From positions 3,162,001 through 3,226,000 of the forward strand of contig NZ_CP013189.1 in the NCBI RefSeq assembly GCF_001444425.1: 64,000 bases of DNA, given 5' to 3'. The stretch comes from Pseudohongiella spirulinae (lineage in GTDB: Bacteria > Pseudomonadota > Gammaproteobacteria > Pseudomonadales > Pseudohongiellaceae). This document shows, piece after piece, positions 49,454 to 64,000 of this stretch. The position numbers were made by a program, and so were the translations under genes. Each line of letters begins with the position of its first letter. Positions within the stretch are counted from its first letter, which is position 1. The notes under the pieces were generated by a model. It was given only the letters and a program-made list of their open reading frames with translations. It made no database searches and had not been told where the DNA came from.

Positions 49454-49535
49454 GGCGCTGGGGACGGAGGCGGTTACCCTGGGGACGGAGGCGGTCTCTG
49501 TCCCCAGGGTAACCGCCTCCGTCCCCAGCGCCTCA
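49451..49535. repeat. palindromic repeat, copy 2: perfect 36-bp inverted repeat
   Basis: Arms 49451-49486 and 49500-49535 are perfect complements around a 13-base loop GGAGGCGGTCTCT. Each arm contains two tandem GGGGACGGAGGCGG-type units (the inner one is split by the loop). The arms start at the TGA of sqr and end at the TCA (stop, minus strand) of the next gene, so the element spans exactly from stop to stop. It could act as a two-way transcription terminator, although there is no T-tract. Confidence 0.9.
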
Positions 49536-50612
49536 CTCGATCAGGTTATAGATACGCCTGATCGCTCTGACGTCGGCACCTGCTGCACGGATTTGTGGGT
49601 AGTTTGCGCTGTGGTTGGTCATGTCGATCTGCTGGGCGGCATCCTCTGCGCTTAGACCACTGCGCTTTAGCTCGGCGGTTTTGGCCCACAGGTCGCGCAG
49701 ATAAGCCTGGAAGGCATCTATACGTTCGCGGCTCTCAACCAGAGGACCGTGGCCTGACAGCAGGATGTCAAAATCCAGGGCTTTGATTCGCTCCAGCACA
49801 TCTGCCCATTCGTTTGCGTAAGCGTCACCCATGTAAATCAGATTCTGGCCTACCAGGTCGCCGGCATAGAGGATTTTTTCGTGCGGCAGAAACACAACCA
49901 CGTCACCTCCGGTGTGACCTCTGCCTGTATGGATGAGTTGTATTTCCCGACCGCCGCCAACAACATCCTGGTAGATTGTCATGGTATCACTGACGGTTAT
50001 ATTTGGCGGAGTGGGCTCGATCTGCGCCACTGAATTCAGGTGGGCTTCGTGCATGGCAATCTGTCCCTGGATTGACGCCCGCTCGTGTACATCATTGGAC
50101 TGCTCAAGCTGCGCACGAAGACGCTCTATTTGCACCGGGACTCCCTGCGTGAAGCTGATAAACGTCGATTCTTCCAACACATTACCCAACTCACCGTTCA
50201 ATTTCTCGCGGGTATACTGCGAGCCGATTATCTCAACATCACGCGGAAACACTTGATTACCGTGAGCGTGATCAAAGTGGTAATGCGTGTTGATCAGGTA
50301 ACGAACCGGCTTATTGCTGACCGCCTTGATCGAGTCCAGCAAGGCCAGACCTGCATTAGGCGACACATGGGAATCCACAACCAGCAGGTCATGCAAGCCT
50401 TCGATAAGCATGGACTGGCTGGTGAGGTTCACCGCGCCAGTCGCCGTGATGAAGTAGATGCCATCAGCCACCGGTGTAAAGACGTGGCTGCGGGTTTCTA
50501 TCACACCCGAGGACTGTACGTTCTGAGCAGAGCTTATACTGAGCACGGTCAATAGCGACATACCGATAGCAGCGGCTGCAACAAGCGCCAGTAGACTCTT
50601 TTTATTCTTCAT
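49533..50612 (-). CDS. exported metallo-beta-lactamase-fold hydrolase
   Basis: 359 residues with a signal peptide (LLALVAAAAIGMSLLTVLSI, cleavage near SSAQ). The zinc motif is INTHYHFDHAHGN (HxHxDH), with further ligands in IHTGRGHTGGDVVVFLP and LYAGDLVG, and ILLSGHGP carrying the last His. An insert of about 60 helical residues (QIERLRAQLEQSNDVHERAS) separates the halves. It resembles periplasmic SoxH/quinoprotein-relay hydrolases. The context beside the sulfide operon is suggestive but it is on the opposite strand. Substrate unknown. Confidence 0.85.
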   Translation of the reverse strand: MKNKKSLLALVAAAAIGMSLLTVLSISSAQNVQSSGVIETRSHVFTPVADGIYFITATGAVNLTSQSMLIEGLHDLLVVDSHVSPNAGLALLDSIKAVSNKPVRYLINTHYHFDHAHGNQVFPRDVEIIGSQYTREKLNGELGNVLEESTFISFTQGVPVQIERLRAQLEQSNDVHERASIQGQIAMHEAHLNSVAQIEPTPPNITVSDTMTIYQDVVGGGREIQLIHTGRGHTGGDVVVFLPHEKILYAGDLVGQNLIYMGDAYANEWADVLERIKALDFDILLSGHGPLVESRERIDAFQAYLRDLWAKTAELKRSGLSAEDAAQQIDMTNHSANYPQIRAAGADVRAIRRIYNLIE

Positions 50613-50628: not shown

Positions 50629-50700
50629 TAACGCTGGGGACGGAGGCGGTCTACGTCCCCAGAGCGCTGGGGACGTAGACCGCCTCCGTCCCCAGCGTTA
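50629..50700. repeat. palindromic repeat, copy 3: perfect 34-bp inverted repeat
   Basis: Arms 50629-50662 and 50667-50700 are perfect complements with a 4-base loop AGCG. Each arm is itself a hairpin unit, CTGGGGACGGAGGCGG then TCTACGTCCCCAG. The right arm includes the TAA stop of the M48 gene; the left arm lies just upstream of the metallo-hydrolase start. Confidence 0.9.
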
Positions 50701-52176
50701 CTGCAGAATTTTGATCCACTCGCCCGGCTGCGGATTACCGATCGGGTAGTAGCCGTTCAGCAGGCGCAGTGTTTCTTCCGGGTACTGGGGGATCGGGCTT
50801 CGAGCTGCCAGGGCACGCCAGTCAAAACCTTCGGTGACCTGCACGTAGCGCACGCGCAGGCTACTGCTGCCGGAGCGCTCGTTCATCTGGATGGCTCTGA
50901 AAGTGCGGATGGACGACAGCAGCAGTCGATCCAGATCCTGCACGGCTTCAGGGTCGGGAATCTCCGCCCGGAATACAAAGACACGTGGCCCCAGATAGAT
51001 GGCTGCTACGCGCTCATGGTTGCCAGCATCATTGGTATGGGTGCCCGTGTACCCGATCAGTCGATACTGTGACAATGCTTCGGACTGCTGCAAATCAGCG
51101 ATGCCCAGATTCTCGCGGATATACAAGCGAGGCTCTTTGTTTTCCTGTAGCCGCTGCGCTTCGACGCGAATTGATGCACTGCCTTCTGGCGCGCTGGCCG
51201 TCACAGTTGTGGGAGTCTCACGGATCGACCAGGCATCCGGAAACACCATGGTGTAACTAAGCAGGTCCTGATAATAGCGGTTACGGTCCCCGGTGCTGGT
51301 GACATTCTCTCCAAATGGCAAGCCGTCGATGTGCTGACGGAAGATCAGCGGATCAGTCTCACGCATCTGGTCGGCCGACAGATTTCCAGCCTGCGAAACG
51401 GCCTGCTGCAAGCGAACATCGTTACGCGGGTGCGTGGTAAACAGACCGTGATAGCTCGGTTGACGCTGCGCCACGCGGACATTGAAATCCTCCTGACTTT
51501 TCAGCACGCTCAGCACATCGATCATGGCTCGCGGGTTATAGCCAGCATTGTATAAATACTGAGCACCCAGACTGTCGGCTTCCAGCTCATTCTCCCGGCC
51601 AAAACCACTGACTCCGGCTGCCGCCCAGATAGAGCCAATCTGCGCCAGCTCAGAGCCGATATAACCGCTGCCCGTCGCAACGGCAGCTACCACACCACCC
51701 ACCGTTGCGGCGGCGCTGCCGAGACGGCCACGGGCCTGCTGCTGGATTGCATGGCGTGCGGTAATATGCCCCACCTCGTGCGCAAGCACCGCCGCCAACT
51801 CATCTTCAGATTTCAGGTATAAAAGCAGACCGCGGTTGATGTAGACATAACCACCCGGCAGGGCAAAAGCGTTAATCTCGGGACTGTCGATAACGGTGAA
51901 GGTATAACTCAGATCAGGGCGATGACTGGTCCTCGCCACGCGTTGCCCGACTTCGTTCACATAGGCATTGAGCGCTTCGTCTTCCATGATACGCATGGAG
52001 GCGAGCACCTTCTCATGTTCCTCCTGGCCAATCTCCAGCTCGCGCCGCTCGCTCATCAGTACAAGATTACTCTGCCCGGTGGCAGGATTCACGGCACAGG
52101 CCTGCAGACCAGTGGCCAACAGAATGCCCGCCAGCACTGTCAGCCGGATGTAGTTGCCGCCCCACTGCAGGATCAT
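50698..52176 (-). CDS. M48 family metalloprotease lipoprotein with C-terminal extension
   Basis: 492 residues from ATG 52176, just after the upstream stop (AAGGCGG as ribosome site). The lipobox is ATGLQAC. The zinc motif LAHEVGHITARHA is followed by ENELEADSLGAQYL with the third ligand Glu, as in BepA/LoiP-type periplasmic proteases. After the protease (to about 270) a further 200 residues end in an SH3-like or TPR-free region (FRAEIPDPEAVQDLDRLLLS) containing a DWRALAARSPIPQYPEETLR motif. It is last in the large operon that starts beyond 64000. Role in envelope protein quality control is inferred. Confidence 0.85.
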   Translation of the reverse strand: MILQWGGNYIRLTVLAGILLATGLQACAVNPATGQSNLVLMSERRELEIGQEEHEKVLASMRIMEDEALNAYVNEVGQRVARTSHRPDLSYTFTVIDSPEINAFALPGGYVYINRGLLLYLKSEDELAAVLAHEVGHITARHAIQQQARGRLGSAAATVGGVVAAVATGSGYIGSELAQIGSIWAAAGVSGFGRENELEADSLGAQYLYNAGYNPRAMIDVLSVLKSQEDFNVRVAQRQPSYHGLFTTHPRNDVRLQQAVSQAGNLSADQMRETDPLIFRQHIDGLPFGENVTSTGDRNRYYQDLLSYTMVFPDAWSIRETPTTVTASAPEGSASIRVEAQRLQENKEPRLYIRENLGIADLQQSEALSQYRLIGYTGTHTNDAGNHERVAAIYLGPRVFVFRAEIPDPEAVQDLDRLLLSSIRTFRAIQMNERSGSSSLRVRYVQVTEGFDWRALAARSPIPQYPEETLRLLNGYYPIGNPQPGEWIKILQ

Positions 52177-52177
52177 A

Positions 52178-52867
52178 TCAACCGCCTTGCACAAACTGCT
52201 TGAGCTGATCGGCCAGACTATTGCAGGCATTGGCCTCAACACGGGCTATCAGCGGAATGGGCACAAATACGGCGGGCATATAAGACTGACCGCTGGCATC
52301 GGCGCTGATTGTGCCTACCGCCAGATTGGACGAAACATCCCATACCCGGGCCTCAAAACTGGAGTCATCTTCCCAGGAGCCAAAGCCGAAGCAACCACCG
52401 CCACCCGGGCCTACAGTGCAGGAAATTGAACCCATGCGATTGGATGTCTCCGTCTGGCCATCCAGCCAAACGATATATCGCACCCCGAACTCATTCATCT
52501 TGTCACTGACCATGGGTTGCGCCATCAATTGCTGCAGGTCGTCACTTCGCAGCGGTGCCGTGCGCGGCTCAAACCAGGGAAACAGCGCATCCACGAACTG
52601 CTGCTCCGGCACCACGTTCAGCCCATCACGCCCGCGTGCCATGCGATCACCAACACACTGCACAAAATCGGCGGCTGTCTCGTACCCTGCGCCCTGACGG
52701 CGACCCAGAATAACAACCGTTTCTCCTGTGTTCAGGCCGGTTTCCGCCTGACGGAATTCATCAATCGTGGTGCTGGTGCAAGCCGACAGCGCGGCCAGCA
52801 AAACGAGCCAAAGACCGGGCCAGAAACGTTGCCTGGCCAGCGTCAGACACTTGTTTTTGATCTTCAT
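52178..52867 (-). CDS. lipoprotein of the 50-64 kb operon, function unknown (CsgG/GNA1162-like pattern)
   Basis: 229 residues with lipobox LAALSAC. The segment FGVRYIVWLDGQTETSNRMG followed by the glycine-rich TVGPGGGGCFGFGSW and FEARVWDVSSNLAVGTISAD has the alternating strand pattern of CsgG-like periplasmic lipoprotein domains, but I cannot assign a family. Five cysteines include three in the central region. It starts 13 bp after the previous lipoprotein gene and ends 1 base before the M48 start. Confidence 0.7.
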   Translation of the reverse strand: MKIKNKCLTLARQRFWPGLWLVLLAALSACTSTTIDEFRQAETGLNTGETVVILGRRQGAGYETAADFVQCVGDRMARGRDGLNVVPEQQFVDALFPWFEPRTAPLRSDDLQQLMAQPMVSDKMNEFGVRYIVWLDGQTETSNRMGSISCTVGPGGGGCFGFGSWEDDSSFEARVWDVSSNLAVGTISADASGQSYMPAVFVPIPLIARVEANACNSLADQLKQFVQGG

Positions 52868-52880
52868 GCTGACTCCTGTT

Positions 52881-53516
52881 TCAATTGCCTGATAGCTGGA
52901 GTTGTTGTCTGCTTAACCAGTCCCGGATATCAGGCACTGCCCGAAAACTGATTGAAAAATTTGAAGCCAGATCCCGCAAGGCCGCTACTGCCGCATCATT
53001 AATACCGCGCTCTGCCGACGTAAAATTACCCTGCGTCGATTTACCATAAGCGGTCATTACCCAGTCCGCCACATAAGATCCATCCGCGCCGGTCATACGC
53101 ATGTTGTACTTTATCCATACCTCATAAGCATCCAGACGGGTTTTCTGCGGCATGCCCAGCTGAAACTCATCAATCTGCGGCATAAACACAGCATCCACTC
53201 CCCTGGCACCCGCTTCCGTGGGGTTATTCAGCACCACGACCTGCGAAAACATCGCGGGCAACACTGTGTTAAACAGCTCCATATGAGTATTACCGGCTGC
53301 AACCAGATATTCTTCCTTACCAGTATCAGACAATTCGGTGTAGATATAGTTGCGCAGGTCATCACTGTAGTACACACCCAGCGTTAGCGGCAGCGGTGGC
53401 ACATTGGGGCTCGGATAGCTGCCCTGCACCTCAACGGTGCTTGCCGCGCAGGCCGTCAGGCTGACCAGCGCCAGCAGTACCAGTAGTCGGAAGGATTTAA
53501 TGCTGTTGATCACCAC
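52881..53516 (-). CDS. lipoprotein of the 50-64 kb operon, function unknown
   Basis: 211 residues, lipobox VSLTAC. Its middle part, LGVYYSDDLRNYIYTELSDT and NTVLPAMFSQVVVL, followed by VDAVFMPQIDEFQLGMPQKT, looks like an outer-membrane-associated mixed alpha/beta lipoprotein, perhaps LptE- or DUF4136-like. A C-terminal helix ends the chain. Gap to the VWA gene is 12 bp, so it shares the operon. No activity can be assigned. Confidence 0.7.
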   Translation of the reverse strand: MVINSIKSFRLLVLLALVSLTACAASTVEVQGSYPSPNVPPLPLTLGVYYSDDLRNYIYTELSDTGKEEYLVAAGNTHMELFNTVLPAMFSQVVVLNNPTEAGARGVDAVFMPQIDEFQLGMPQKTRLDAYEVWIKYNMRMTGADGSYVADWVMTAYGKSTQGNFTSAERGINDAAVAALRDLASNFSISFRAVPDIRDWLSRQQLQLSGN

Positions 53517-53528
53517 GCACTCCTGCAG

Positions 53529-54533
53529 TTACTGATAGGAATTGAGGCCGACAAAACTGCCGCCGTTTCGCTCTGCCAATTCGCGCATCAGGGTAGCAAA
53601 GCGATAGACGCTTTCATGATAACGCGGGTCCAGGTCAAACAATACCGGAAATCCGACGGCGTGAATACGTACCAGTCGGCTACCGTCTGAGCCGGCCTGA
53701 TTGATTCTATCCACCGTTTCCACCACCCGGGTAATCGATCCGCCAGGCTGAAAGTCATCGCCAAAGACATAAATACTCACTTTCTGGCCCGGCTGGTAGA
53801 AAGTGCTGATCGCGCGCGTAATGCCTTCAACAGGACTGCTGTTACTGAATGGAGACCAATTACGCAAGGTCGAGATAATGGCCTGGCGACGCGCCGGGGT
53901 ATCCGGGATCCACTGACCACGGTAGGCCGGGAACATATAGTCACCCATATCATTCATGACCTGTATGCCCCGAACCTCCGGATAAACATCCAGCACCTCA
54001 CTGATCATGTCCAGCACCCGAGGCCAGGCGTTGTAAAACATACTACCCGAGGTGTCGATAAGGAAAATAATATATTCGCTATCCACCGGAATACCACCAA
54101 TCACATTGTTGCTGCGCGTGAAATCCTGGCCCAGCAAGCGCTGCATTTCAGCGGTCAGCGACTGGCGGGCAATGGCCAGTCGGTTTTCTTCCTCACTGAC
54201 TTCCTCGGCCAGCTGGCTTGAGGTTTCGAAACGCCCCTGAATATTGGACATCTCGCGCTCAAGGCGGGCAATACGGTCGCGATAAGCAGACAACTGTTCC
54301 CGCCGGGCATTGAGGTCGCGGTTTGCAATTTCGGTTTCGCCCCGGATCTCAAACAGCGTCTGTTGCAGCTCGGCGATCGGCTGATCCCGCTGCACTGCGG
54401 TAAACTCGAGACTGACCGGCGCCGAATTTTCAGTAATCATCAGCAACAGGATAATGGCCCCGAAACCACAGGAAATCACATCCAGAAAGGCGATACTGGA
54501 GCTGTCTTCTTCGCGTTTTCTGCGTCTGCTCAT
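53529..54533 (-). CDS. ExbD/MotB-like helix plus coiled coil plus VWA domain (copy A)
   Basis: 334 residues: a basic start (MSRRRKREEDSSS), one membrane helix AFLDVISCGFGAIILLLMIT with an Asp in the position of the proton-carrying Asp of ExbD/MotB, a coiled coil at about 50-130, and a VWA domain from about 150 with an intact MIDAS (IFLIDTSGSM). VWA replaces the peptidoglycan-binding domain of MotB. Overlaps copy B by 4 bp. With the TolQ/MotA-like gene upstream it should form an ion-driven complex. Confidence is high for domains, low for the function. Confidence 0.82.
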   Translation of the reverse strand: MSRRRKREEDSSSIAFLDVISCGFGAIILLLMITENSAPVSLEFTAVQRDQPIAELQQTLFEIRGETEIANRDLNARREQLSAYRDRIARLEREMSNIQGRFETSSQLAEEVSEEENRLAIARQSLTAEMQRLLGQDFTRSNNVIGGIPVDSEYIIFLIDTSGSMFYNAWPRVLDMISEVLDVYPEVRGIQVMNDMGDYMFPAYRGQWIPDTPARRQAIISTLRNWSPFSNSSPVEGITRAISTFYQPGQKVSIYVFGDDFQPGGSITRVVETVDRINQAGSDGSRLVRIHAVGFPVLFDLDPRYHESVYRFATLMRELAERNGGSFVGLNSYQ

Positions 54534-55630
54534 GGCCAGTCCCGTGACGGTGTGATGAAAGAACCCCGACTGATCTGTCCCAACTGCCAGAATGCAGCAG
54601 CCGCTGCCGGGTCGCCTTCCATTGGCAGCAATATCGTATTGACCGGAATATTGCGGGGCAAACTTTCAATGGCTTCGGCGTAGAGATTCAAGCGCTGGCG
54701 CGGCGTGATCGTCGTCGCGTTGCTCGGTCGGTTGCTTTGTGTGGGCAGGCTGTCGGTAATCAGGTAAACGTTATCCGGCGGCGGGTTCATGCCCGCAATC
54801 GCCTGAAACGCAGCCTGCAGGTTGTTACCGCCGCCAGGCACAACATCCTGCACCGCCAGAATGACTTCGTTCAATTGATCCTGGTCGGCAACTTCCAGCC
54901 ACATTCCCTCAGTACCCTCCAGCACAGGACGCACCGTCTCATCAAACGCCAGCACCTGATACTGGCTGATCACTGGCAATTGACTGCTTATCCACTCCAC
55001 GATTCGCACTGCCCGCTGCCACTTGGGCGCCTCTTTTTTGACCCGGTCCGGCATGTTGCGTGTGCGTATGACGTTGACCAGCGTATCGTCCAGCATACTG
55101 GCTGAACTATCCAATAATATGACGATGCGATTACCGCCCAATAACATGCCTGACAGATACTGTCTGTCACCGTCACCCAGAAACTGTCGGCTACTCTGTC
55201 CGCGTTCTTCCTCGGCACTGGCCTGCAGGCGCAACAACTCTTCTTCCATGGCGCGGATATCAGCTCGCAGCGCTTCCAGACTTTCCTCGGTTGCCATTGA
55301 ATTGCCTTCAAGCGCGGCGAGCTGCGACATAAAATCATCGATCTCACTTTGTATACGCTCTGCCAGCCCCTGCGCCTCTACAACCTCCAGACTTACTTCG
55401 TTGAGCGTATTTCGAATTCGAAACAGGTTCTCTTCACCTTCGGCGATGTCTTCTTCCAGCAGACGCACTTCAGCAGTCATATTGGGGTCGGCTTCCTGGC
55501 GGGCTTCCGTGGCAGTATGGTCAAGAATAAGAAACAGCAGCACCACGGCACCAAAGCCGCAGGACATCACGTCAAGAAATGCCAGGCTCAGTGGATTGAA
55601 TCCACCGCGTTTTTTTTTAGCCGACGCCAT
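54530..55630 (-). CDS. ExbD/MotB-like helix plus coiled coil plus VWA domain (copy B)
   Basis: 366 residues and a tandem paralogue of copy A. N-terminal helix LAFLDVMSCGFGAVVLLFLI keeps the F-L-D-V and S-C-G-F-G-A pattern. A longer coiled coil (about 45-140) and a VWA domain with MIDAS VILLDSSASML and NVYLITDSLPTQ follow. It overlaps the actin-like gene by 14 bp. Two different stator-like chains suggest a heterodimer in place of the ExbD or MotB homodimer. Confidence 0.82.
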   Translation of the reverse strand: MASAKKKRGGFNPLSLAFLDVMSCGFGAVVLLFLILDHTATEARQEADPNMTAEVRLLEEDIAEGEENLFRIRNTLNEVSLEVVEAQGLAERIQSEIDDFMSQLAALEGNSMATEESLEALRADIRAMEEELLRLQASAEEERGQSSRQFLGDGDRQYLSGMLLGGNRIVILLDSSASMLDDTLVNVIRTRNMPDRVKKEAPKWQRAVRIVEWISSQLPVISQYQVLAFDETVRPVLEGTEGMWLEVADQDQLNEVILAVQDVVPGGGNNLQAAFQAIAGMNPPPDNVYLITDSLPTQSNRPSNATTITPRQRLNLYAEAIESLPRNIPVNTILLPMEGDPAAAAAFWQLGQISRGSFITPSRDWP

Positions 55631-56822
55631 GATGCACTCTGATCAATTGTAATTGCCGGCCCTGGTGATTTATAAGCTCACCAAGCCGATGTTTTTGCAG
55701 CAGCTCTGTCAACTCCTGCTGGCTGAATACCGGTTGATTATTCAATGGCCAGGCAGAACCATCTACCAACAGATGTGTTGCCGCCGCAGGCTGAGGTTCG
55801 TTTTTTGTCGCCTGCTCCCTTGTACGCAGGTTGACGCTGGTCAGATATGGCACGGCCGTTTCATTGCCAGGCAAGTCATTAAGCAATTGCACACAGCTGT
55901 GTGCCAGCTGCTCACCACTGACTATCTGTTTTTGCTGTCCGAAGTGCTGCACCAGCCCCGGAATGGAGGCAGAGCGTGAGGAAATCAACAGCGGAACGTC
56001 GCTCGCATCGACATCTGAAAACTGCAGCAGTTGCTGGCTCAATTTATCCAGCGCAGGACTTATGCTTTCCCGCAAATCGGTAGCCGACACACTCGCTTTA
56101 TGAGTCGATTTATCGGTCTCTATTTCTACTACAATTTCATGCGCGCCCGCGGCAAGAGTACTCAGCCATTGCGGCAGTTCGTTGAACAGCTGCTGCTCCC
56201 ATTGCGCGCTGTGCTGCGGGTTGAAACGGCATTGGGAAATGAACTCATCATTCACTGTCTGCACCAGCGCATTGCTCATGGCATCCCAGCCGGCACTCTG
56301 GGTCTGCAATACCTGCTGTCGCACCAGTCGCTGACCTTCTTTGCGCATAACAGTGAACACAGCCTGATGCAGTTGCAGGTCAAGATAGACCAGATAATCA
56401 GCCTGAGCGTTGGACCCGGCAGCGGCGGCGATACCGCTGTCCAGCATTGCACTGACTGTAAAGGGACTGTGTCGCACAATGCCACTCAGAATGGCTAATT
56501 GCTCGCGATTGAAGTTACCGGGCACCGCCAGCACCACTGGCCCCTCATAGTCAGCCAGTTCGCCCAATTGCAGCAAATGCGCATGCGCCATATCCGCGTA
56601 ATGCCGAAAATTGGCCACCGGCCTGGACAGAGGCGACATGCTCAAACGGTTCCAGAACTCGTTATTGGTGCTGACCGGATGCAGGCGACTTTGACTGGCC
56701 GCCTGCACACCAAATTGGGGCTGTTTGCCAATACTGAGCACGTAACCCGGACTGCTGGCCAGCAATTGACCGTCCTGATACAGACTCAGTGCCTGATCGT
56801 TCAATTCCAGAACAGCACTCAT
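55617..56822 (-). CDS. actin/Hsp70-fold protein (PilM/FtsA-like)
   Basis: 401 residues without signal peptide or membrane helix. The middle part VVLAVPGNFNREQLAILSGI with SAMLDSGIAAAAGSNAQADY and YLVYLDLQLHQAVFTVMRKE reproduces the Hsp70/actin core: the adenosine region and the phosphate-2 strand. The first phosphate loop (VLELNDQALSLYQDG) is degenerate and lacks the usual DxGxx, so nucleotide hydrolysis may be lost. It overlaps the ion-channel gene by 4 bp and the VWA gene by 14 bp. Probably a cytosolic platform for the complex, which is inference. Confidence 0.72.
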   Translation of the reverse strand: MSAVLELNDQALSLYQDGQLLASSPGYVLSIGKQPQFGVQAASQSRLHPVSTNNEFWNRLSMSPLSRPVANFRHYADMAHAHLLQLGELADYEGPVVLAVPGNFNREQLAILSGIVRHSPFTVSAMLDSGIAAAAGSNAQADYLVYLDLQLHQAVFTVMRKEGQRLVRQQVLQTQSAGWDAMSNALVQTVNDEFISQCRFNPQHSAQWEQQLFNELPQWLSTLAAGAHEIVVEIETDKSTHKASVSATDLRESISPALDKLSQQLLQFSDVDASDVPLLISSRSASIPGLVQHFGQQKQIVSGEQLAHSCVQLLNDLPGNETAVPYLTSVNLRTREQATKNEPQPAAATHLLVDGSAWPLNNQPVFSQQELTELLQKHRLGELINHQGRQLQLIRVHHGVG

Positions 56823-57667
56823 GCTGGCTCCGCAACTCCGTTGTCAGGCAAGGTGCGCGTCGGAGCCTTGCCGGGTACCTGCAGAAAATTCACCAGATGA
56901 TTATCGCAGTATGTTTGTGTATCCAACACCAGACGGTCCTGGATCAATGATAATTGGTGCAGAACAAACATCAACATGATACTGGTCAGCAAGGCCACAA
57001 AGGTTGAGTTAAACGCCACACCAAGACTGACCGTAACACCCAGAATATCGCCGGTCACCGCCTGATGTGCCTGACCCAGGGCCGTACCAATGCCGCGCAC
57101 TGTGCCCAGGAAGCCGATTGACGGTATCGCCCACGCGATATAACGGACAATTGCCAGCTCGCTTTCCAGCCGCTCCGATTCGCTGTCACAGACATCACGG
57201 ACAGTGGCTGCCACATCCTGCACGTTGCGTGTAGTACCGAATCGATGCAAACCTGCCAGCAAGGCACGCGGTAACAGGTAGGCGCGTTCCTTCTCTGGCA
57301 GAGCCTGAACCGGCCTGGCATATTGCCTGGCGTCTTCCGGCAAAATACTGGTGCCATCCGAGACCTGCAAGAGCTCGCGATCAAGCAACGAACGCTCCCT
57401 CATTGTGCGCAGTGTTTTCATACCAACGATGGACAACGCCCAGAGGAACAGAATGATGCAGGTTTCCTGCTCAAAGTCCTTCATGACAATATAGATAGAA
57501 CGCTCCGGCACATAATTCTCATCGGCTTCCTGCATCATGGTCTGCTGTTGCTGAATGATCTCCGCATTAGGCCTGATAACGGCCACATACACGGCATGTA
57601 CCACAATCACGACAATGATCAGGGCGAAAATCTGGTAGATAATTTCAGACAGATACTTTTGTTTCAT
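56819..57667 (-). CDS. MotA/TolQ/ExbB-type ion channel subunit
   Basis: 282 residues, four membrane helices: IFALIIVVIVVHAVYVAV, CIILFLWALSIVGM, AIVRYIAWAIPSIGFLGTVR and LGVAFNSTFVALLTSIMLMF. The diagnostic PF01618 motif GFLGTVRGIGTALGQA sits before the last helix pair, as in TolQ/ExbB. A cytoplasmic domain lies between helices 2 and 3. It would form the pentameric channel around the Asp helices of the VWA proteins encoded next. In the same operon there is no TonB/TolA-like gene in view. Confidence 0.88.
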   Translation of the reverse strand: MKQKYLSEIIYQIFALIIVVIVVHAVYVAVIRPNAEIIQQQQTMMQEADENYVPERSIYIVMKDFEQETCIILFLWALSIVGMKTLRTMRERSLLDRELLQVSDGTSILPEDARQYARPVQALPEKERAYLLPRALLAGLHRFGTTRNVQDVAATVRDVCDSESERLESELAIVRYIAWAIPSIGFLGTVRGIGTALGQAHQAVTGDILGVTVSLGVAFNSTFVALLTSIMLMFVLHQLSLIQDRLVLDTQTYCDNHLVNFLQVPGKAPTRTLPDNGVAEPA

Positions 57668-57686
57668 TCAGCGATCCTGCTATCTG

Positions 57687-57959
57687 TTAAATGTCGACTG
57701 GAAACGAGACGCCCAGATCCTGGGAGATTTGCTCAGAAGGTATAAAGCGACCTGGTGCTTCTCCTTCAGCTCGTTGTATGGGTTGGCTGTCAATGTCAGG
57801 CCTGTCCGCATCATTATCTGCAGCACTCTCCTGATTGCTCTCAGAAGATTGTTCGGTCTGATCGGTTTGATCGTCTGAAGAGGTTTCCTGCGCCTGCAAC
57901 GGTGTGAGTGTCATAAGCAGGCAGGCAGCAAACAGCCAGACAATGCGCTTGTGTGTCAT
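57687..57959 (-). CDS. small exported acidic protein, function unknown
   Basis: 90 residues with a signal peptide (LFAACLLMTLTPLQAQ). The mature part is Ser/Gln/Asp/Glu-rich and disordered (TSSDDQTDQTEQSSESNQES), ending in RFIPSEQISQDLGVSFPVDI, the only ordered-looking segment. Its start overlaps the stop of the PEGA-SUMF1 gene by 4 bp, and it precedes the ion-channel gene by 20 bp. I recognise no homologue; the tail could be a docking peptide. Confidence 0.7.
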   Translation of the reverse strand: MTHKRIVWLFAACLLMTLTPLQAQETSSDDQTDQTEQSSESNQESAADNDADRPDIDSQPIQRAEGEAPGRFIPSEQISQDLGVSFPVDI

Positions 57960-60049
57960 TCAAGGTACCTCGCGACGCGAAAACCCAGATCATTGCGCGG
58001 CTCTTCTCCGAAGTCACGATAGGACGCACGCAGTTCCACGATGGAGCCATGTGACCAGGCCGACCCTTTGATGGTGCGGTAGCGTCCCTCTTCCGGCCCC
58101 AGTGGATCTGTTTCGGTCACTGAGCTCAGACCACTGACCGCTCCGTAGACATCATGCATCCACTCAGACACATTGCCACCCATATCAAAGAAACCGCGGG
58201 CATTGGGCGGGAACGAGCCAACATTGGCAGTACCTGCATAACGGTCATCGTAGCCACGCAAATACTGCCCCAGAAAAGCACTGGTTGACTCATCAGCAAA
58301 GTTCCCCAGGCCGGCTTCAGGGGGCCAGGTATCCCCCCATGGGAAACGATAACTGTTACCGGCATCGTCGGTCCGTGCAGCCCACTCCCACTCCGCCTCT
58401 GTCGGAAGCCTGTAGCCTGTTGAGCTGGCATCGAATCCGCTCACCTGACCGTCTTCAATGATATAAAACGGCTGCAGTCCTTCCTGTTCACTCAGCCAAT
58501 TGGCATACATCACAGCATCCAGCCAGGAGACCTGCACAACGGGCTGCTGCGGCAAATCCAGTGACTGGCCCTGCAATACGCCAGATGCATGATCCGGCCG
58601 AAAGCGCTTAAACTGTTCGTTGGTCACCAGATTAAGTGACAGATAAAAAGGTCGCTCCAGGATGACATCGCGAAGCGTCTCGTTGGCGCGGCGGCCCGGC
58701 TCGCGCCTGGATGAACCCATGGTATAGGCGCCAGGATACATCAACGTCAGGGTCTGGCCACCGGCACTGGTAATCACCGGCTCAATAGATTCCAGGCGAG
58801 CCTGCTCTTCAGTTTTTAACTGAACGCGAATTTCCTGGTCCAGACCCGGCCGCGAGGTGAAATTTGTTGTGTAGGCCACGTAGCCCTCTTTGCGGATTTC
58901 GATGCGCTGATTGGCCGCCAGCAATTCGACAGTCTGATTGGCCGCACCCATTGCACGCCCGTCAACAAACAGTTCCGCATCGGGCGGGTCTGCAATTACC
59001 CGCACCAGATTGGTCACTGGCGTCAGTGCAACCGTAATGTCGCTCTCTTGCTCTGCCGATGTAGTAATTCGCTGCACGGCCGTCTCGAAACCCGTTCGGA
59101 ACAAGCGCAGTTCGTGCTGCTGTCCGGGTGGCAGAGACACCTCCAACGGCGTCTGTCCACGGAACTCACCATTGATGGTTACATTGGCATTGCCTGGCTC
59201 GGAACGTATGAAAACCAGGCCGTCGGCCTGTTCCAGACTAACCTCAGGCAATTGCTGATCCTGCCCGGCTATTATCTGTAGATCATCTTGCCATGCCTTG
59301 AAGCCAGCCCGCTTTATCGTGACTTCGTAGGCACCCTGAAGCATTTCCAGACGAGCAGGTGTCACACCCAACAATTCACCATTGGCAATGATGTCCGCAC
59401 CGGGCGGGTCACTGCGGAATTCGACGTGCGCCCATGCCGGGTCAAGTGTAATATCAAATTCCTGCTCGGCCAGACGTCCCTCTATAGAGATAGTTTGCGA
59501 GGCGTTCAAATAGCGACTCATCTCTGCCTGCAGCGTGTAGTCGCCAGGTGGCAATTCCAGCGCCTGCACCGGAGCAGCCCCGATATCGACACCATCAAGA
59601 AGCAGACGTGCACCGGTCAGCGGCTGATATTGCGCATCCAAAACACGAATATCTGCATAGCCCGGACGCGGCTGCATGGCAATGGCACGTGTCTGAGCCT
59701 GTTCTTCTGAAATCTGTAACTCTGAGCTGCTGTCAAAATAGCCATAGGCGCTCAAGTCAACCTGATACGTACCAGGTCGCATCAAATAACGCGGACCTAT
59801 CCGAACGGCGAAACCATCGGTAATCTGAATGTCAGCCAATGGCGGGTCGGTATCAATAAAAACGGATCTGGCGGTTAATACAAACCAGCCGGCGGCGACT
59901 GCAAGTGATAAGGCAAGCAATACAAGTGCGTGATACCAGCGCGGTCGCCACTTTATCTGCCGACCACCTTTTGGTGGCGGGGAGAAATCAACCGGGGTGA
60001 TGATTTCAACGGCATCATCGTGTCCGGGTTCAACATGTTTATCCTGCAT
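57956..60049 (-). CDS. membrane-anchored PEGA-repeat protein with C-terminal SUMF1 domain
   Basis: 697 residues from ATG 60049. One membrane helix (YHALVLLALSLAVAAGWFVL) after about 40 cytosolic residues is followed by four or five PEGA-type beta repeats, for example EFRSDPPGADIIANGELLGV and IRSEPGNANVTINGEFRGQT. The last 230 residues are a SUMF1/FGE fold (YRLPTEAEWEWAARTDD, GFFDMGGNVSEWMHDVYGAV). The catalytic cysteines of formylglycine-generating enzymes are absent (KGSAWSHGSIVELRASYRDF), so a binding role is likely. PEGA repeats are often wall- or matrix-facing. Confidence 0.88.
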   Translation of the reverse strand: MQDKHVEPGHDDAVEIITPVDFSPPPKGGRQIKWRPRWYHALVLLALSLAVAAGWFVLTARSVFIDTDPPLADIQITDGFAVRIGPRYLMRPGTYQVDLSAYGYFDSSSELQISEEQAQTRAIAMQPRPGYADIRVLDAQYQPLTGARLLLDGVDIGAAPVQALELPPGDYTLQAEMSRYLNASQTISIEGRLAEQEFDITLDPAWAHVEFRSDPPGADIIANGELLGVTPARLEMLQGAYEVTIKRAGFKAWQDDLQIIAGQDQQLPEVSLEQADGLVFIRSEPGNANVTINGEFRGQTPLEVSLPPGQQHELRLFRTGFETAVQRITTSAEQESDITVALTPVTNLVRVIADPPDAELFVDGRAMGAANQTVELLAANQRIEIRKEGYVAYTTNFTSRPGLDQEIRVQLKTEEQARLESIEPVITSAGGQTLTLMYPGAYTMGSSRREPGRRANETLRDVILERPFYLSLNLVTNEQFKRFRPDHASGVLQGQSLDLPQQPVVQVSWLDAVMYANWLSEQEGLQPFYIIEDGQVSGFDASSTGYRLPTEAEWEWAARTDDAGNSYRFPWGDTWPPEAGLGNFADESTSAFLGQYLRGYDDRYAGTANVGSFPPNARGFFDMGGNVSEWMHDVYGAVSGLSSVTETDPLGPEEGRYRTIKGSAWSHGSIVELRASYRDFGEEPRNDLGFRVARYLE

Positions 60050-60053
60050 CAGT

Positions 60054-60359
60054 TTAACGCCTGTCCAGAGCTGCAAGCTGCTCACTGCATTGAACCACAA
60101 CAGCCTCTGGCTGATCGTCGATACCTACAACAAACTCCTCACGCACATCGCGATATCCCGGTCGCGTGCCCACAGCCACATAGCGACCGGGTGTCAACAT
60201 CAGTGTCGTCTGGGAAAAGGCACCTAGCTCACCGACCCGGTATATTGTTACCTGTGTGGCATTGTCGGACATCAATCGGATTTCTCTCGGCTGTGTCATC
60301 TGCTGAAGTAGTTCTTCGGTTTGCTGGATCTGCGATTTCAGTCTGGTTCCCAGTGCATC
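60054..60359 (-). pseudogene. C-terminal beta domain of the TPR gene, separated by an amber codon
   Basis: Continues in the same frame after TAG at 60360-60362: a helix (LGTRLKSQIQQTEELLQQ) then TQVTIYRVGELGAF, LTPGRYVAVGTRPGYRDVRE and VVVQCSEQLAALDRR, a PEGA-like beta domain. ATG 60299 lies within this stretch but has no ribosome site (ACCGAAGAACTACTTCAGCAG region), so it is unlikely to be expressed on its own. Either a nonsense mutation or programmed read-through separates it from the TPR part. Confidence 0.75.
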
Positions 60360-61544
60360 CTAGTTTTGAGCCATCAGATCCTGTGCCAGATCACTTGCCA
60401 CCCTGAACACGTCCAGTGCTTCCTGATAAGCGGCAGCATCAGACAGACGCAAGGGATCGTCCAGATTAGTCTGCAGCAGGGTATCGAGCTGTAGACGACG
60501 CTCAGAGTAATCTTTACCTTCCTGGGCGAAAACCAGATTGGCGTCCAGATCCAGTGCCGCGGCGTAGGTATCGATGGCCTGTTGCCATTGCTCCTGTTGC
60601 TCATGGCGCTCGGCCTGGAGGCGGTATTGTTCAATGCGCACCAGGGTTAACTGCTCACGGGTCTGGGTAATTGCTTCGTTGGCCTGCTGTGAACCGGGCC
60701 GCACCTGCAAGGCGCGCTGGAAGGCAGTGATTGCCGATTCAGCTTCTCCTCGATCCAGTAATGCAAACCCTTCTGACATGATGCGAGTGAACTCTGCGTC
60801 GATCATTCGCTGCTCATTGTCCTGACGCAGTGCTGTCGCACGATCATGCAAGGGGTCAAGTAACACAGCCTGATCGTAGAGTGCCTGTGCCTGCGCAAGT
60901 TCGCCGCTTTCCTGTAGTTCACCGGCATCGCTGAGCAATGCCTCCACCTGGTCCAGTGTCTCGGCTCGCTCTCGGCCGACAGCAACATCTTCACTGGTCG
61001 GATCAAGGCGGGCAGCCAGCTCGAACCGGGCCAGTGCAGTTGTTGCGTCTGCAGCTTGCAGCGCAGCCTGACCTTCTTCCATTATGCGCGCCAGCACTGT
61101 GTCTGTCTGATCCAGCAATGCACCGAGACGCTGGTCTCCTTCCTGATAAGCCGCTGCCGCATCACTGAATGCGCCGGTGCGATAGAACTCGTCACCACGG
61201 CGAGCAGCCTCCAGACCCTGACTGAATTGTTCAGCTGCCCACTGCTCGACGCCCATCATTTCGAGTTCTGACTGCTTATTCAGCAGATCAGCCAGAGCGT
61301 CCTGAGCTTCGCGCCTCTGACGGGCCAGCTGGGCTTCTTCAAAAGGAGAAATGGCGGGGGGTTGGGGAGCATCCGGTGACGGCACAATCGCAGCTGGGGG
61401 CTGCTCAACACGCTTGACCAATGGCAACTCGTATCGCTCAACTACTTGCGGCAATACAAATATGACGGCCAGCGCCAGCAAACTGAGCGCGGCCAGACCA
61501 ACCCAGACCCAGGGCGAAATACCTGACTTTCCTGCTGCTGCCAT
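60360..61544 (-). CDS. membrane-anchored TPR protein ending at an in-frame amber codon
   Basis: 394 residues from ATG 61544, which overlaps the stop of the upstream gene as TAATG (GGTGG upstream). One N-terminal helix (WVWVGLAALSLLALAVIFVL), a Pro-rich linker and then tandem TPR-like helices with a repeating A/L pattern (EGQAALQAADATTALARFEL, EGFALLDRGEAESAITAFQR). It stops after DLMAQN at TAG 60360; the same frame then encodes 101 more residues of a beta domain. Assembly scaffold for the envelope complex is a reasonable guess. Confidence 0.82.
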   Translation of the reverse strand: MAAAGKSGISPWVWVGLAALSLLALAVIFVLPQVVERYELPLVKRVEQPPAAIVPSPDAPQPPAISPFEEAQLARQRREAQDALADLLNKQSELEMMGVEQWAAEQFSQGLEAARRGDEFYRTGAFSDAAAAYQEGDQRLGALLDQTDTVLARIMEEGQAALQAADATTALARFELAARLDPTSEDVAVGRERAETLDQVEALLSDAGELQESGELAQAQALYDQAVLLDPLHDRATALRQDNEQRMIDAEFTRIMSEGFALLDRGEAESAITAFQRALQVRPGSQQANEAITQTREQLTLVRIEQYRLQAERHEQQEQWQQAIDTYAAALDLDANLVFAQEGKDYSERRLQLDTLLQTNLDDPLRLSDAAAYQEALDVFRVASDLAQDLMAQN

Positions 61545-62725
61545 TAAAGTCCACCGGTCTCCGTCAGATAAATCTCCATGAGGATGTCCTGCCACTGCTC
61601 ATACTGCTCTTCCACGGTGCCGCTGAGCATGATGGTGCGGTCTTCCAGTTCGATGACCTTGGGAGCCACTTCCGCCTGCAAGGACTCACCGATTTCCTGT
61701 AGCGCCGCAATATGCATACTGGCTTCTGCGGAGCGGTCAAAACCGCTGCGCACCAAATAAGCACCGGCACCTACGCCAACAATACCGGCCGTCTGCGCAG
61801 CGGCATTATTCTGTCCGACAGCCGCAATGCCGCCAGCGATGGCTGCAGCACCTGCCACAAAACGTCGACGTGCGGAGCGCTCAGCCTCCTCAAGTTGCAG
61901 GGTCTCCCGGAAACTGACTTCGCGCCAGGCATCGTAAGGCCCGCGCATTTCCCGGACGTATGTCGCGTAATAGTCCTGAATGGTATCGACGAACAGGTAG
62001 TCACGTTCGCGGATATCCCGAATGCGCGCCATGGTCGGATCGTTGTCGGCCGGCAGGCGCACGGCACTGGTAATGCCACGATTGTCAGTCTGCAGATAAT
62101 CAGCATAAATTTCCGGCGCAAACTCCGCAGCGAATTTCAGCTCTGCCACGGTGCGGATATTGCGCATGTCATCGTTGCTGATATTCTGCTGACGGTATGC
62201 AAGCATATCGTTGGCAATAGTATTGTAGATGACCTGAAAGGGATCGTGTGACTGTCGCTGCGACGGGTCATAGTTATACTGGCTGATATGCTCTTCATAT
62301 TCCTTGCTGAACCACTGTCGGCCGGTGGCGTCGGTCACGGTGATGTCGAGAATCATGCCCTCACCATTGGACAGCAGAATCTGACCATGGACGTAGACAT
62401 CCATCACGCTGCGCTCGGTAGGAATGACGCGCACAACGCCCCAGTTTCCCGAACGCTGCAACGTGTCCGCCATCAGATAAGGCGCATAGCGAGACTCGGC
62501 GCGGCGAATTTCAAAGTTGGTGCGCTCAAGATCGCGGCGCTCAACCTCATCAATACCGGGATCAAATACCTTGACCCCTACGTCCAGAATCAGATCTTCA
62601 TCCATCGGCAAGGTGCCCTGCACCACGGGCACAAACTCGGTCGATTTAACCGATGTGGTCGCACAACCACTCAAGCCCAACAAAAGCATCGCTGTTAGCG
62701 CGAATATCGGTTTCAGTGCCTGCAT
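61544..62725 (-). CDS. lipoprotein of the 50-64 kb operon with glycine-rich helix
   Basis: 393 residues from ATG 62725 (AGAGGA 7 bases upstream), lipobox LLLGLSGC. Its first half, DEDLILDVGVKVFDPGIDEV and NWGVVRVIPTERSVMDVYVH, with ILDITVTDATGRQWFSKEYE, has a conserved-looking periplasmic beta domain. The middle is helical (YADYLQTDNRGITSAVRLPA, then RDIRERDYLFVDTIQDYYAT). A glycine/alanine stretch (FVAGAAAIAGGIAAVGQNNA) near 295 could insert in or across a membrane. Family not recognised. Confidence 0.75.
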   Translation of the reverse strand: MQALKPIFALTAMLLLGLSGCATTSVKSTEFVPVVQGTLPMDEDLILDVGVKVFDPGIDEVERRDLERTNFEIRRAESRYAPYLMADTLQRSGNWGVVRVIPTERSVMDVYVHGQILLSNGEGMILDITVTDATGRQWFSKEYEEHISQYNYDPSQRQSHDPFQVIYNTIANDMLAYRQQNISNDDMRNIRTVAELKFAAEFAPEIYADYLQTDNRGITSAVRLPADNDPTMARIRDIRERDYLFVDTIQDYYATYVREMRGPYDAWREVSFRETLQLEEAERSARRRFVAGAAAIAGGIAAVGQNNAAAQTAGIVGVGAGAYLVRSGFDRSAEASMHIAALQEIGESLQAEVAPKVIELEDRTIMLSGTVEEQYEQWQDILMEIYLTETGGL

Positions 62726-62750
62726 ACTTCCGTCCTCTTGACCCGTCTGA

Positions 62751-64000
62751 TCAATTGCTGATGCCAGTGTAACGGCGATATTCATCCCAAAGCGCTTCAC
62801 GCAGCTCAGGATCCGGCTCGCGCATGGCGGCCTCTCTGATCTGGCGGGCAACAACATCATCGTCCCGACCCGATGGCGGAATATCATCCGGTATCGGATA
62901 TTCCCCCTGCTCGCCAGACGGGCCGCCCTGCAGGCCGCCGACCGACCCGCCGGAGCCACCGGCCTGAGGACCCTGTCCGCCGCCGTTCGACGCTATCACG
63001 CCGCCCTGACCTTCGCCAGTACCTTCTATGCTGCCCCGGCCTGCGGCTGTAACACCCGGCAAGCCACCAGGCTCACCTCCACCACCGGGCTGATTAGCCA
63101 TGCCACCAGAGCCACCCTGACCCTGCTCATCATAAAGTCCGGCAGGATCAGCACCCACTTCATTGCTCTGTCGTTGGGCACGGCTGCGCTCAGCCAATAT
63201 GAGACCATCAAAATCTTCGTAGCCACGACCCAGCGCGCCATCTAGCACGGCCACGCGCTCAGCAGCGGTCATCACACCACTGCCGGTACCACTACCTGAC
63301 CCTGCACCAGCGGGAACACCTGACACACTTCCCGCACCCGCAGCACTGCCACTCCTATTTCCAGTTCTTGTCTGGGAGCCTGGTATGCCTCCCGGCAAAC
63401 CGCCTGCAGCGGTTGTGCCGCCGCTACCCGATCCTGCTGAGCCTGATGGCATGGCGCCACCGACAGCACCAGCAATTCCGCCAGTACCCGCGCTGCCACC
63501 GGTCTGCATAGTGGCCCCACCTGCCGCTGATTGCGCACCCGTACCTGTCTGCTGAGTACCGCCACTGGTGGTCCTGGATCCGCTCTGACCAGAGCTGCCT
63601 TGCGGCATTGAGCTGCCGCCTGCGCTTGCTGCCTGCGCTCCCCCGGATTGCTGACCAGTGCCGGACTGCTGCGAACTTGAGCCCGATTGCTGAGAGCTGC
63701 TGGCACTCTGCTGAGAGCCGCCACCCTGGCTGGATGATCGCCGCCCGCTGGAGAAGTCCGGCAGGCGCGATGAGGCGGTGGATCCTGCTGAACCAGAGGG
63801 CATAGAGGAACTCGACGGCATGGACGATCCGGAAGATGGCATGGACGGCCCTGATGATGGCATCGATGAGCTGCTGCCGCCAGATGACGACGAAGACGAA
63901 GACGAGGATGACGAAGACGACGGCATCTGCGGCATTTGCGGCATACTGGACTGAGTCTGCTGGGTGCTTTCACAGGCACTGAGAATCAGCGCTGCCGCGC
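62751..64000 (-). CDS. Ser/Gly/Gln-rich lipoprotein, 5' end outside the window
   Basis: Open to the right edge. At the edge the frame reads AAALILSACESTQQTQSS, a lipobox (LSAC) followed by MPQMPQMP and a run of 13 serines. About 230 residues are of low complexity (Ser, Gly, Gln, Pro, Thr, Ala), with a more complex section in the middle (GVMTAAERVAVLDGALGRGY) and an ordered tail (REPDPELREALWDEYRRYTG). It is the most upstream gene visible in the large operon, 25 bp before the next. The serine tract uses many synonymous codons. Surface fibre or flexible tether is possible. Confidence 0.72.
   Translation of the reverse strand, partial: AAALILSACESTQQTQSSMPQMPQMPSSSSSSSSSSSSSGGSSSSMPSSGPSMPSSGSSMPSSSSMPSGSAGSTASSRLPDFSSGRRSSSQGGGSQQSASSSQQSGSSSQQSGTGQQSGGAQAASAGGSSMPQGSSGQSGSRTTSGGTQQTGTGAQSAAGGATMQTGGSAGTGGIAGAVGGAMPSGSAGSGSGGTTAAGGLPGGIPGSQTRTGNRSGSAAGAGSVSGVPAGAGSGSGTGSGVMTAAERVAVLDGALGRGYEDFDGLILAERSRAQRQSNEVGADPAGLYDEQGQGGSGGMANQPGGGGEPGGLPGVTAAGRGSIEGTGEGQGGVIASNGGGQGPQAGGSGGSVGGLQGGPSGEQGEYPIPDDIPPSGRDDDVVARQIREAAMREPDPELREALWDEYRRYTGISN

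Follow-up and report, generated by a model that had tools for sequence, protein, structure and literature searches.

A recurrent operon of a TolQ-like channel, two Asp-helix VWA proteins and envelope components in Pseudohongiella spirulinae

Flagella, nutrient uptake, division, gliding and type 9 secretion all run on ion-driven 5:2 motors, and a locus of the gammaproteobacterium Pseudohongiella spirulinae raises the question of what a channel of this kind might do when the genes that accompany it encode von Willebrand-type (VWA) proteins in place of ExbD or MotB. The locus lies in a window of 64,000 nucleotides (the whole stretch analyzed; bases 3162001-3226000 of the 3.345 Mb single-contig genome, contig NZ_CP013189.1), where an operon of twelve genes, g02 to g13, occupies the minus strand at 50698-64037, with g01 beyond the window end at 64098-65498. 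We propose, at a probability of roughly 60%, that the operon specifies a machine which spans the envelope and generates force from the ion-motive force, acting on an outer-membrane lipoprotein assembly and separate from Tol-Pal and flagella. Judged by its sequence, the motor core appears to be of a known, recently predicted kind, whereas the conserved list of envelope parts around it appears to be new.

The channel and its VWA pair

Comparisons drew on 43 loci in total, among them near duplicates such as L010 and L011: in 14 loci of a named genome collection the channel has the same neighbors (several are cut by contig ends), and 28 further neighborhoods were fetched and annotated with profiles made from the first loci. 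The putative motor comprises the following features.

56819-57667, minus strand: g07, channel of the TolQ/ExbB/MotA family
54530-55630, minus strand: g09 (VWA1), whose N-terminal membrane helix carries FLDxxxCGFGA and is followed by a middle part that matches coiled-coil models and by a VWA domain
55571-55573, minus strand: codon of the invariant Asp20 in the membrane helix of VWA1
53529-54533, minus strand: g10 (VWA2), architecture as VWA1, 4 bp overlap with g09
54480-54482, minus strand: codon of the invariant Asp18 in the membrane helix of VWA2

The initial annotation, made from the window alone, had read g07 as a TolQ/MotA-like channel, and the MotA_ExbB profile (PF01618) agrees at 50.2 bits against a cut-off of 22.9. 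Three polar residues, T189, N220 and T222, are invariant in all 38 aligned copies. Hydropathy gave three segments in 26 of these copies, four in five and two in seven, the window copy having four, two of which overlap; the closest named relatives are Pseudohongiella records at 76-89% identity. Channel-family matches fall at seven places in this genome, four of them near an ExbD gene (the same one in two cases) and two with an adjacent MotB-like gene. Only g07 has no neighboring ExbD or MotB gene, and it is followed instead by the VWA pair, with g08 in between. Elsewhere, at genome positions 1652676-1654064 (L003, L005), an ExbD and a TonB-like gene form a cluster with two ExbB-like genes, one of which has a long extension at its N-terminus.

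Both VWA proteins of the window begin with a short basic stretch that leads into the FLDxxxCGFGA helix. The helix Asp, whose conservation had been set as a check on the first interpretation, is present in every frame (42/42 for VWA1 and 41/41 for VWA2), whereas some copies depart from the motif at its Cys and Gly. Counts of Asp, Cys and motifs were made frame-wide and include loci left out of the alignments, which omit L011, L014, L018 and L022 in one case (A8), L011 and L014 in another (A9), and L011, L014, L016 and L018 in a third (A10). When the VWA proteins were aligned blind with the ExbD and two MotB-like proteins of this genome (one entry was empty), the helix Asp fell in the same column as theirs, and the motif SHLS was absent from the first 120 residues of all frames (0/42 VWA1, 0/41 VWA2). 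VWA1 passes the Pfam cut-off for VWA_2 (29.7 bits against 27), and the DxSxS motif is kept in 41/42 VWA1 and 41/41 VWA2 frames, in line with the earlier claim of two VWA proteins that carry an Asp helix. Against the PDB, the VWA2 profile mainly found coiled coils, with an integrin VWA domain at E 0.23. The two genes are adjacent in all 41 loci that have both and overlap by 4 bp in 20/28, an arrangement that fits coupled translation. No ATG was seen before the Asp helix in the VWA1 frame of loci L103-L109, which come from outside the class, and an unusual start codon is possible there.

A motor of this composition has recently been predicted. In section 8 of a 2025 paper in Mol Biol Evol (PMC12204202), heterologous pairs of vWA proteins are described whose genes adjoin a tolQ-like gene but no tolR or exbD, and AlphaFold3 places their ExbD-like Asp helix inside a TolQ-like pentamer; these models are of relatives (Idiomarina proteins were used), and in a motor of this class the Asp would be expected to face a ring of Thr. 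The second vWA family of that section, the TPH-vWA/TolQ-like motor of Proteobacteria, shares with our operon the tolQ-like gene, the vWA pair, the Asp helix and the lack of SHLS, and g07 likewise stands without tolR or exbD nearby, by an ExbD search that covered this genome only. The initial annotation had stated that no named system with this set was known to its author, and had named a previously described system as the finding that would overturn it; by that rule the motor core, already predicted in section 8 of PMC12204202, is prior art.

The pairing of a channel with Asp-helix proteins also recalls Zorya, and the operon could in principle be an anti-phage or conflict system of that kind. 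ZorA is a MotA-family channel and ZorB its Asp-helix partner. A ZorA model matched g07 at E 0.036 and another matched the middle part of VWA2 at E 0.0019, both weakly. In contrast to Zorya, VWA domains are found here instead of a wall-binding domain, and no effector domains were seen. PADLOC models, run on ten of the thirteen proteins (all except g01, g02 and g06), gave no match better than E 0.0007 and no ZorB, ZorC, ZorD or ZorE, the matches falling on the VWA middle parts, the channel or a short stretch of g03. Pfam scans found no nuclease or helicase domain in the cluster, VWA2 had no match in 72,556 plasmid and 50,697 phage records, and the immediate flanks are presumably mutM, coaD and metabolic genes. 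We consider a Zorya-like role very unlikely, and the difference in composition from Zorya that had been remarked on earlier stands.

A conserved block of envelope genes

On the minus strand the channel is preceded, in order, by genes for a TPR/TonB_C protein, two lipoproteins, a TPR protein, a PEGA-SUMF1 protein and a small protein, and is followed by genes for an Hsp70-fold protein, VWA1, VWA2, two lipoproteins and an M48 lipoprotein. The features besides the motor are these.

64098-65498, outside the window, minus strand: g01, TPR protein with a TonB_C match below cut-off
62751-64000, continuing outside the window to 64037, minus strand: g02, Ser/Gly-rich lipoprotein of 428 aa, lipobox LSAC
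61544-62725, minus strand: g03, core lipoprotein, fold match predicted for residues ~38-180
60360-61595, minus strand: g04, single N-terminal membrane helix followed by TPRs, ending at an in-frame TAG
60057-60359, minus strand: C-terminal domain of g04, same frame, downstream of the TAG (profile E 4e-46)
57956-60100, minus strand: g05, with a single membrane helix at its N-terminus, five PEGA stretches and, at the C-terminus, a SUMF1/FGE-like domain that has no Cys
57687-57959, minus strand: g06, small protein with a signal-like N-terminus
55617-56822, minus strand: g08, predicted Hsp70-type fold
52881-53516, minus strand: g11, lipoprotein
52178-52867, minus strand: g12, lipoprotein
50698-52242, minus strand: g13, M48 metalloprotease bearing a lipobox, probably starting at an ATG near 52176

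All genes were found at or near the positions first assigned to them. The proposed extent of 50698 to 64000 was right at its start but not at its end, since g02 reaches 64037 and g01 lies further on, and the overlaps said to join most of the genes, though real at g05/g06, g07/g08, g08/g09 and g09/g10 (4-14 bp), give way at other junctions to short gaps or depend on the choice of start codon. A scan of the operon found a single weak promoter-like site, near the start of g01, and no terminator.

Recurrence of this gene order, proposed as a test when the locus was first described, was sought in genomes from the phylum of the window, 369 of them gammaproteobacterial (272 genera) and 398 from the phylum at large. 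The VWA2 profile matched 29/369 gammaproteobacterial genomes in 22/272 genera (about 8%) and 16/398 of the phylum genomes, 13 of these 16 belonging to one family outside Gammaproteobacteria; matched genomes spread over 20 numbered families. Seven genes (g02, g03, g04, g05, g07, g09 and g10) lie on one strand in 36 of the 43 loci and in the same order in 35 of these 36, five further loci being cut by contig ends (L014, L016, L018, L098 and L107). Both g07 and g09 are present in 41/43, the exceptions being L094, where g07 was not found, and L016, which is limited by contig ends. The remaining genes are optional: g08 occurs in 30 loci, g06 in 26, g11 and g12 in 23 each, g01 in 19 and g13 in 18. 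Loci L103-L109 have the core genes only, and in L085 and L087 g12 is found upstream of g02. At L095 (4003-6900) short pieces of g04 and g05 flank an integrase-core (rve) gene, and no g03 was detected; this locus is probably a decaying copy.

Such a set might be a loose chromosomal neighborhood of envelope genes that share no machine, as the several optional genes and the commonness of PEGA, TPR and M48 proteins would allow. Yet the seven genes stay together in 36 of 43 neighborhoods, with identities to the window copy as low as 27-40% in distant copies, the matched genomes belong to 20 numbered families, and the distance matrices of g03, g07, g09 and g10 correlate at 0.90-0.96 (34 loci, without a control for the host tree). 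We judge a mere neighborhood very improbable, and the recurrence confirms that the gene block is more than a chance arrangement. Beyond the core, neighboring genes differ among the 18 loci listed, and they differ by domain in the ten that were scanned.

Among the envelope parts, five operon proteins look like lipoproteins: the four first reported are present, and a lipobox (LQAC) in the M48 protein g13 adds a fifth. A loose lipobox pattern applied to extended frames was found in 25/38 copies of g02, 34/36 of g03, 21/23 of g11, 20/23 of g12 and 11/18 of g13; for the window g03 it selected an upstream stretch, and LSGC is visible in the sequence. No Pfam family passed its cut-off in g02, g03, g11 or g12, and g02 is well conserved only in its C-terminal part. 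For g03, modeling predicts that residues ~38-180 fold like FlgT, PelC, CsgG or the N-terminal domain of TolB, followed by a helical part with a low-confidence Gly/Ala-rich stretch, and a search of the PDB with its profile gave nothing credible. The identification of g13 as a peptidase of family M48 was borne out by Pfam, the nearest NCBIfam model being BepA, far below that model's cut-off.

The TPR scaffold that had been described was likewise recovered in its repeats but not as one intact gene: a single in-frame TAG (60360-60362, minus strand) interrupts g04, and the C-terminal domain follows in the same frame, continuous in relatives. The TAG may be a real split, a sequencing error or a site of readthrough. 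The gene for the other TPR protein, g01, adjoins the system in 19/43 loci, and in L083, L085, L086 and L087 it lies at the far end on the opposite strand.

The PEGA-SUMF1 protein was correctly recognized. Its gene, g05, which likely starts at an ATG near 60049, encodes five PEGA stretches and an FGE-sulfatase (SUMF1) domain matched by Pfam at 144 bits. No Cys occurs in the last 90 residues of any of the 41 frames that reach the C-terminus, so the domain lacks the catalytic pair of FGE. Its best NCBIfam match is GldK (E 1.1e-24, 87.6 bits against a cut-off of 350), and the GldK and GldJ models, both on this domain, are the only matches of the operon to NCBIfam models named for type 9 secretion (T9SS) or gliding. 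These matches recall the PorKLMN (GldKLMN) system, in which an ion-driven 5:2 motor is combined with a structural protein of Cys-less FGE fold, PorK lacking the catalytic Cys as g05 does (the PorK ring is the subject of PMC12421860). The operon departs from PorKLMN in that its FGE-like protein g05 also carries PEGA repeats and a membrane helix, and in that VWA domains form the end of the proposed axle. Tentatively, the operon could be a convergent proteobacterial counterpart of the T9SS/gliding motor, in which motors with VWA axles drive an envelope assembly of the FGE-fold protein g05 and an outer-membrane ring of the FlgT/PelC/CsgG-like lipoprotein g03, to move adhesins or export material across the outer membrane, a scenario that we think unlikely.

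Other machines invite comparison as well. In the Agl-Glt gliding machinery of Myxococcus, a TolQR-like motor is combined with proteins that have TPR and VWA domains, but the VWA protein CglB is a surface adhesin and not a motor subunit. The section 8 text of PMC12204202 gives no PEGA-SUMF1 protein, g02 or g03 lipoproteins, Hsp70-FHA protein or TPR gene for its second family, and its gene-cluster figure 4c might show some of these additional genes. We did not find the wider parts list described in the literature searched (open-licence PubMed Central, preprints excluded).

Outside the operon, the upstream flank holds what we take to be mutM-like and coaD-like genes, and the downstream flank presumably holds a metallo-beta-lactamase-fold gene and a sulfide-quinone-reductase-like gene. 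These last two face each other (window 49533-50612 and 47729-49453, respectively), and the metallo-beta-lactamase-fold gene also follows the operon in L010, L011, L012 and L015. The 47729-49453 protein is presumably a fusion, its C-terminal part resembling sulfide:quinone reductase and its N-terminal part a phosphatase.

The Hsp70-fold protein

The actin-fold protein of the initial annotation, g08, is predicted to have an Hsp70-type fold. In the window copy no Pfam family passes its cut-off; the profile of the g08 family, however, finds DnaK/Hsp70 at E 1.2e-5, and the model predicted for the copy in L017 (pLDDT 90) has an Hsp70-type nucleotide-binding fold, for which the top rows of a Foldseek search were the Hsp70 of the RAC complex (Ssz1; E 1.8e-17). 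By eye, the canonical phosphate-binding loops of Hsp70 are not recognizable in the alignment, so that ATPase activity is doubtful. In three of nine g08 proteins scanned, an FHA domain passes the Pfam cut-off.

8042-9430 in L085: g08 homologue ending in FHA
8092-9483 in L087: g08 homologue ending in FHA
10207-11568 in L089: g08 homologue ending in FHA

In the window copy the corresponding part is short and not recognizable as FHA, and phospho-signaling may have been lost here. These features bring in a different reading of the operon, as a mechanosensing or signaling complex in which ion conduction by the channel and VWA pair is gated by load or ligand and read out in the cytoplasm by the Hsp70/FHA protein, with no work delivered to the outer membrane. 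The FHA domains, the Hsp70-type fold and the nature of VWA domains as binding modules all speak for it. Against it, g08 is present in only 30/43 loci, its FHA part cannot be recognized in the window, neighbors beyond the core differ between loci, and what stays constant besides the motor is a set of membrane proteins and lipoproteins; on this balance we consider the signaling reading unlikely.

Tol-Pal, flagella and the proposed machine

The operon resembles Tol-Pal in its TolQ-family channel and in a lipoprotein domain that matches TolB-N among others, and differs from it in that Pfam scans of the cluster found no ExbD/TolR and no OmpA/Pal family. Against the TolQ equivalog TIGR02796, g07 scores 27.0 bits where 221 are needed, whereas the genome's own TolQ, encoded elsewhere, scores 286.7. 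TolQ was matched in all 44 carriers tested, 40 of them over the cut-off; since carriers have their own TolQ, the operon does not replace Tol-Pal. It might still be an accessory of Tol-Pal or the flagellum, as a division-site helper or an extra stator. The match to TolQ in every carrier tested argues against the former. Flagellin, found in 12/29 carriers and 188/340 non-carriers (Fisher p 0.18; some carriers are incomplete drafts and may miss genes), is not associated with the operon, which argues against the latter, and an accessory role of either kind appears distinctly improbable.

Several observations weigh against a dedicated force-generating machine. VWA2 (53529-54533) meets no Pfam VWA cut-off (VWA_2 and VWA each at E 0.018), yet it keeps DxSxS in all frames. 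No PDB chain matched the g07 profile at E 0.01. A fourth ExbD gene of this genome (812363-812743) has no PF01618 channel match nearby, so that an ExbD partner of g07 in trans is possible; this gene may be an orphan, or its channel may have diverged beyond the reach of the profile. The 20 kb fetched for locus L094 contain both VWA genes and neither g07 nor g03, and in L090 and L095 g07 is placed after g10. This change of order, together with the frequent absence of g08, g11, g12, g13 and g01, means that the gene set is not fixed. The fold matches of g03 are nearly tied among small lipoprotein folds, with none from Foldseek at E 0.001, and it is gene order that ties the PEGA, TPR and lipoproteins, all of them common, to the motor.

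With these points counted, we favor a trans-envelope machine driven by ion-motive force. In such a machine g07 would form a TolQ-like pentamer in the inner membrane, and the Asp helices of VWA1 and VWA2 would take the place of those of ExbD, TolR or MotB and turn or tilt within the pentamer while ions flow through. Movement would reach the periplasm by way of the middle parts and VWA domains of the two proteins. From there, perhaps with membrane-anchored g05 (PEGA/pseudo-FGE) and g04 (TPR) as intermediates, it may be handed on to the putative outer-membrane lipoproteins g03 and g02. The protein g08 would serve as an optional cytoplasmic assembly or regulatory factor, and the machine would act at the outer membrane or on it, alongside Tol-Pal and apart from the flagellum.

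A further kind of motor, with a VWA-bearing axle, would be present in about 8% (29/369) of the gammaproteobacterial genomes sampled. The parts list given here (channel, VWA pair, pseudo-FGE PEGA protein, TPR protein, two lipoproteins and an optional Hsp70-FHA protein) may turn what was a bare prediction into a definable machine.

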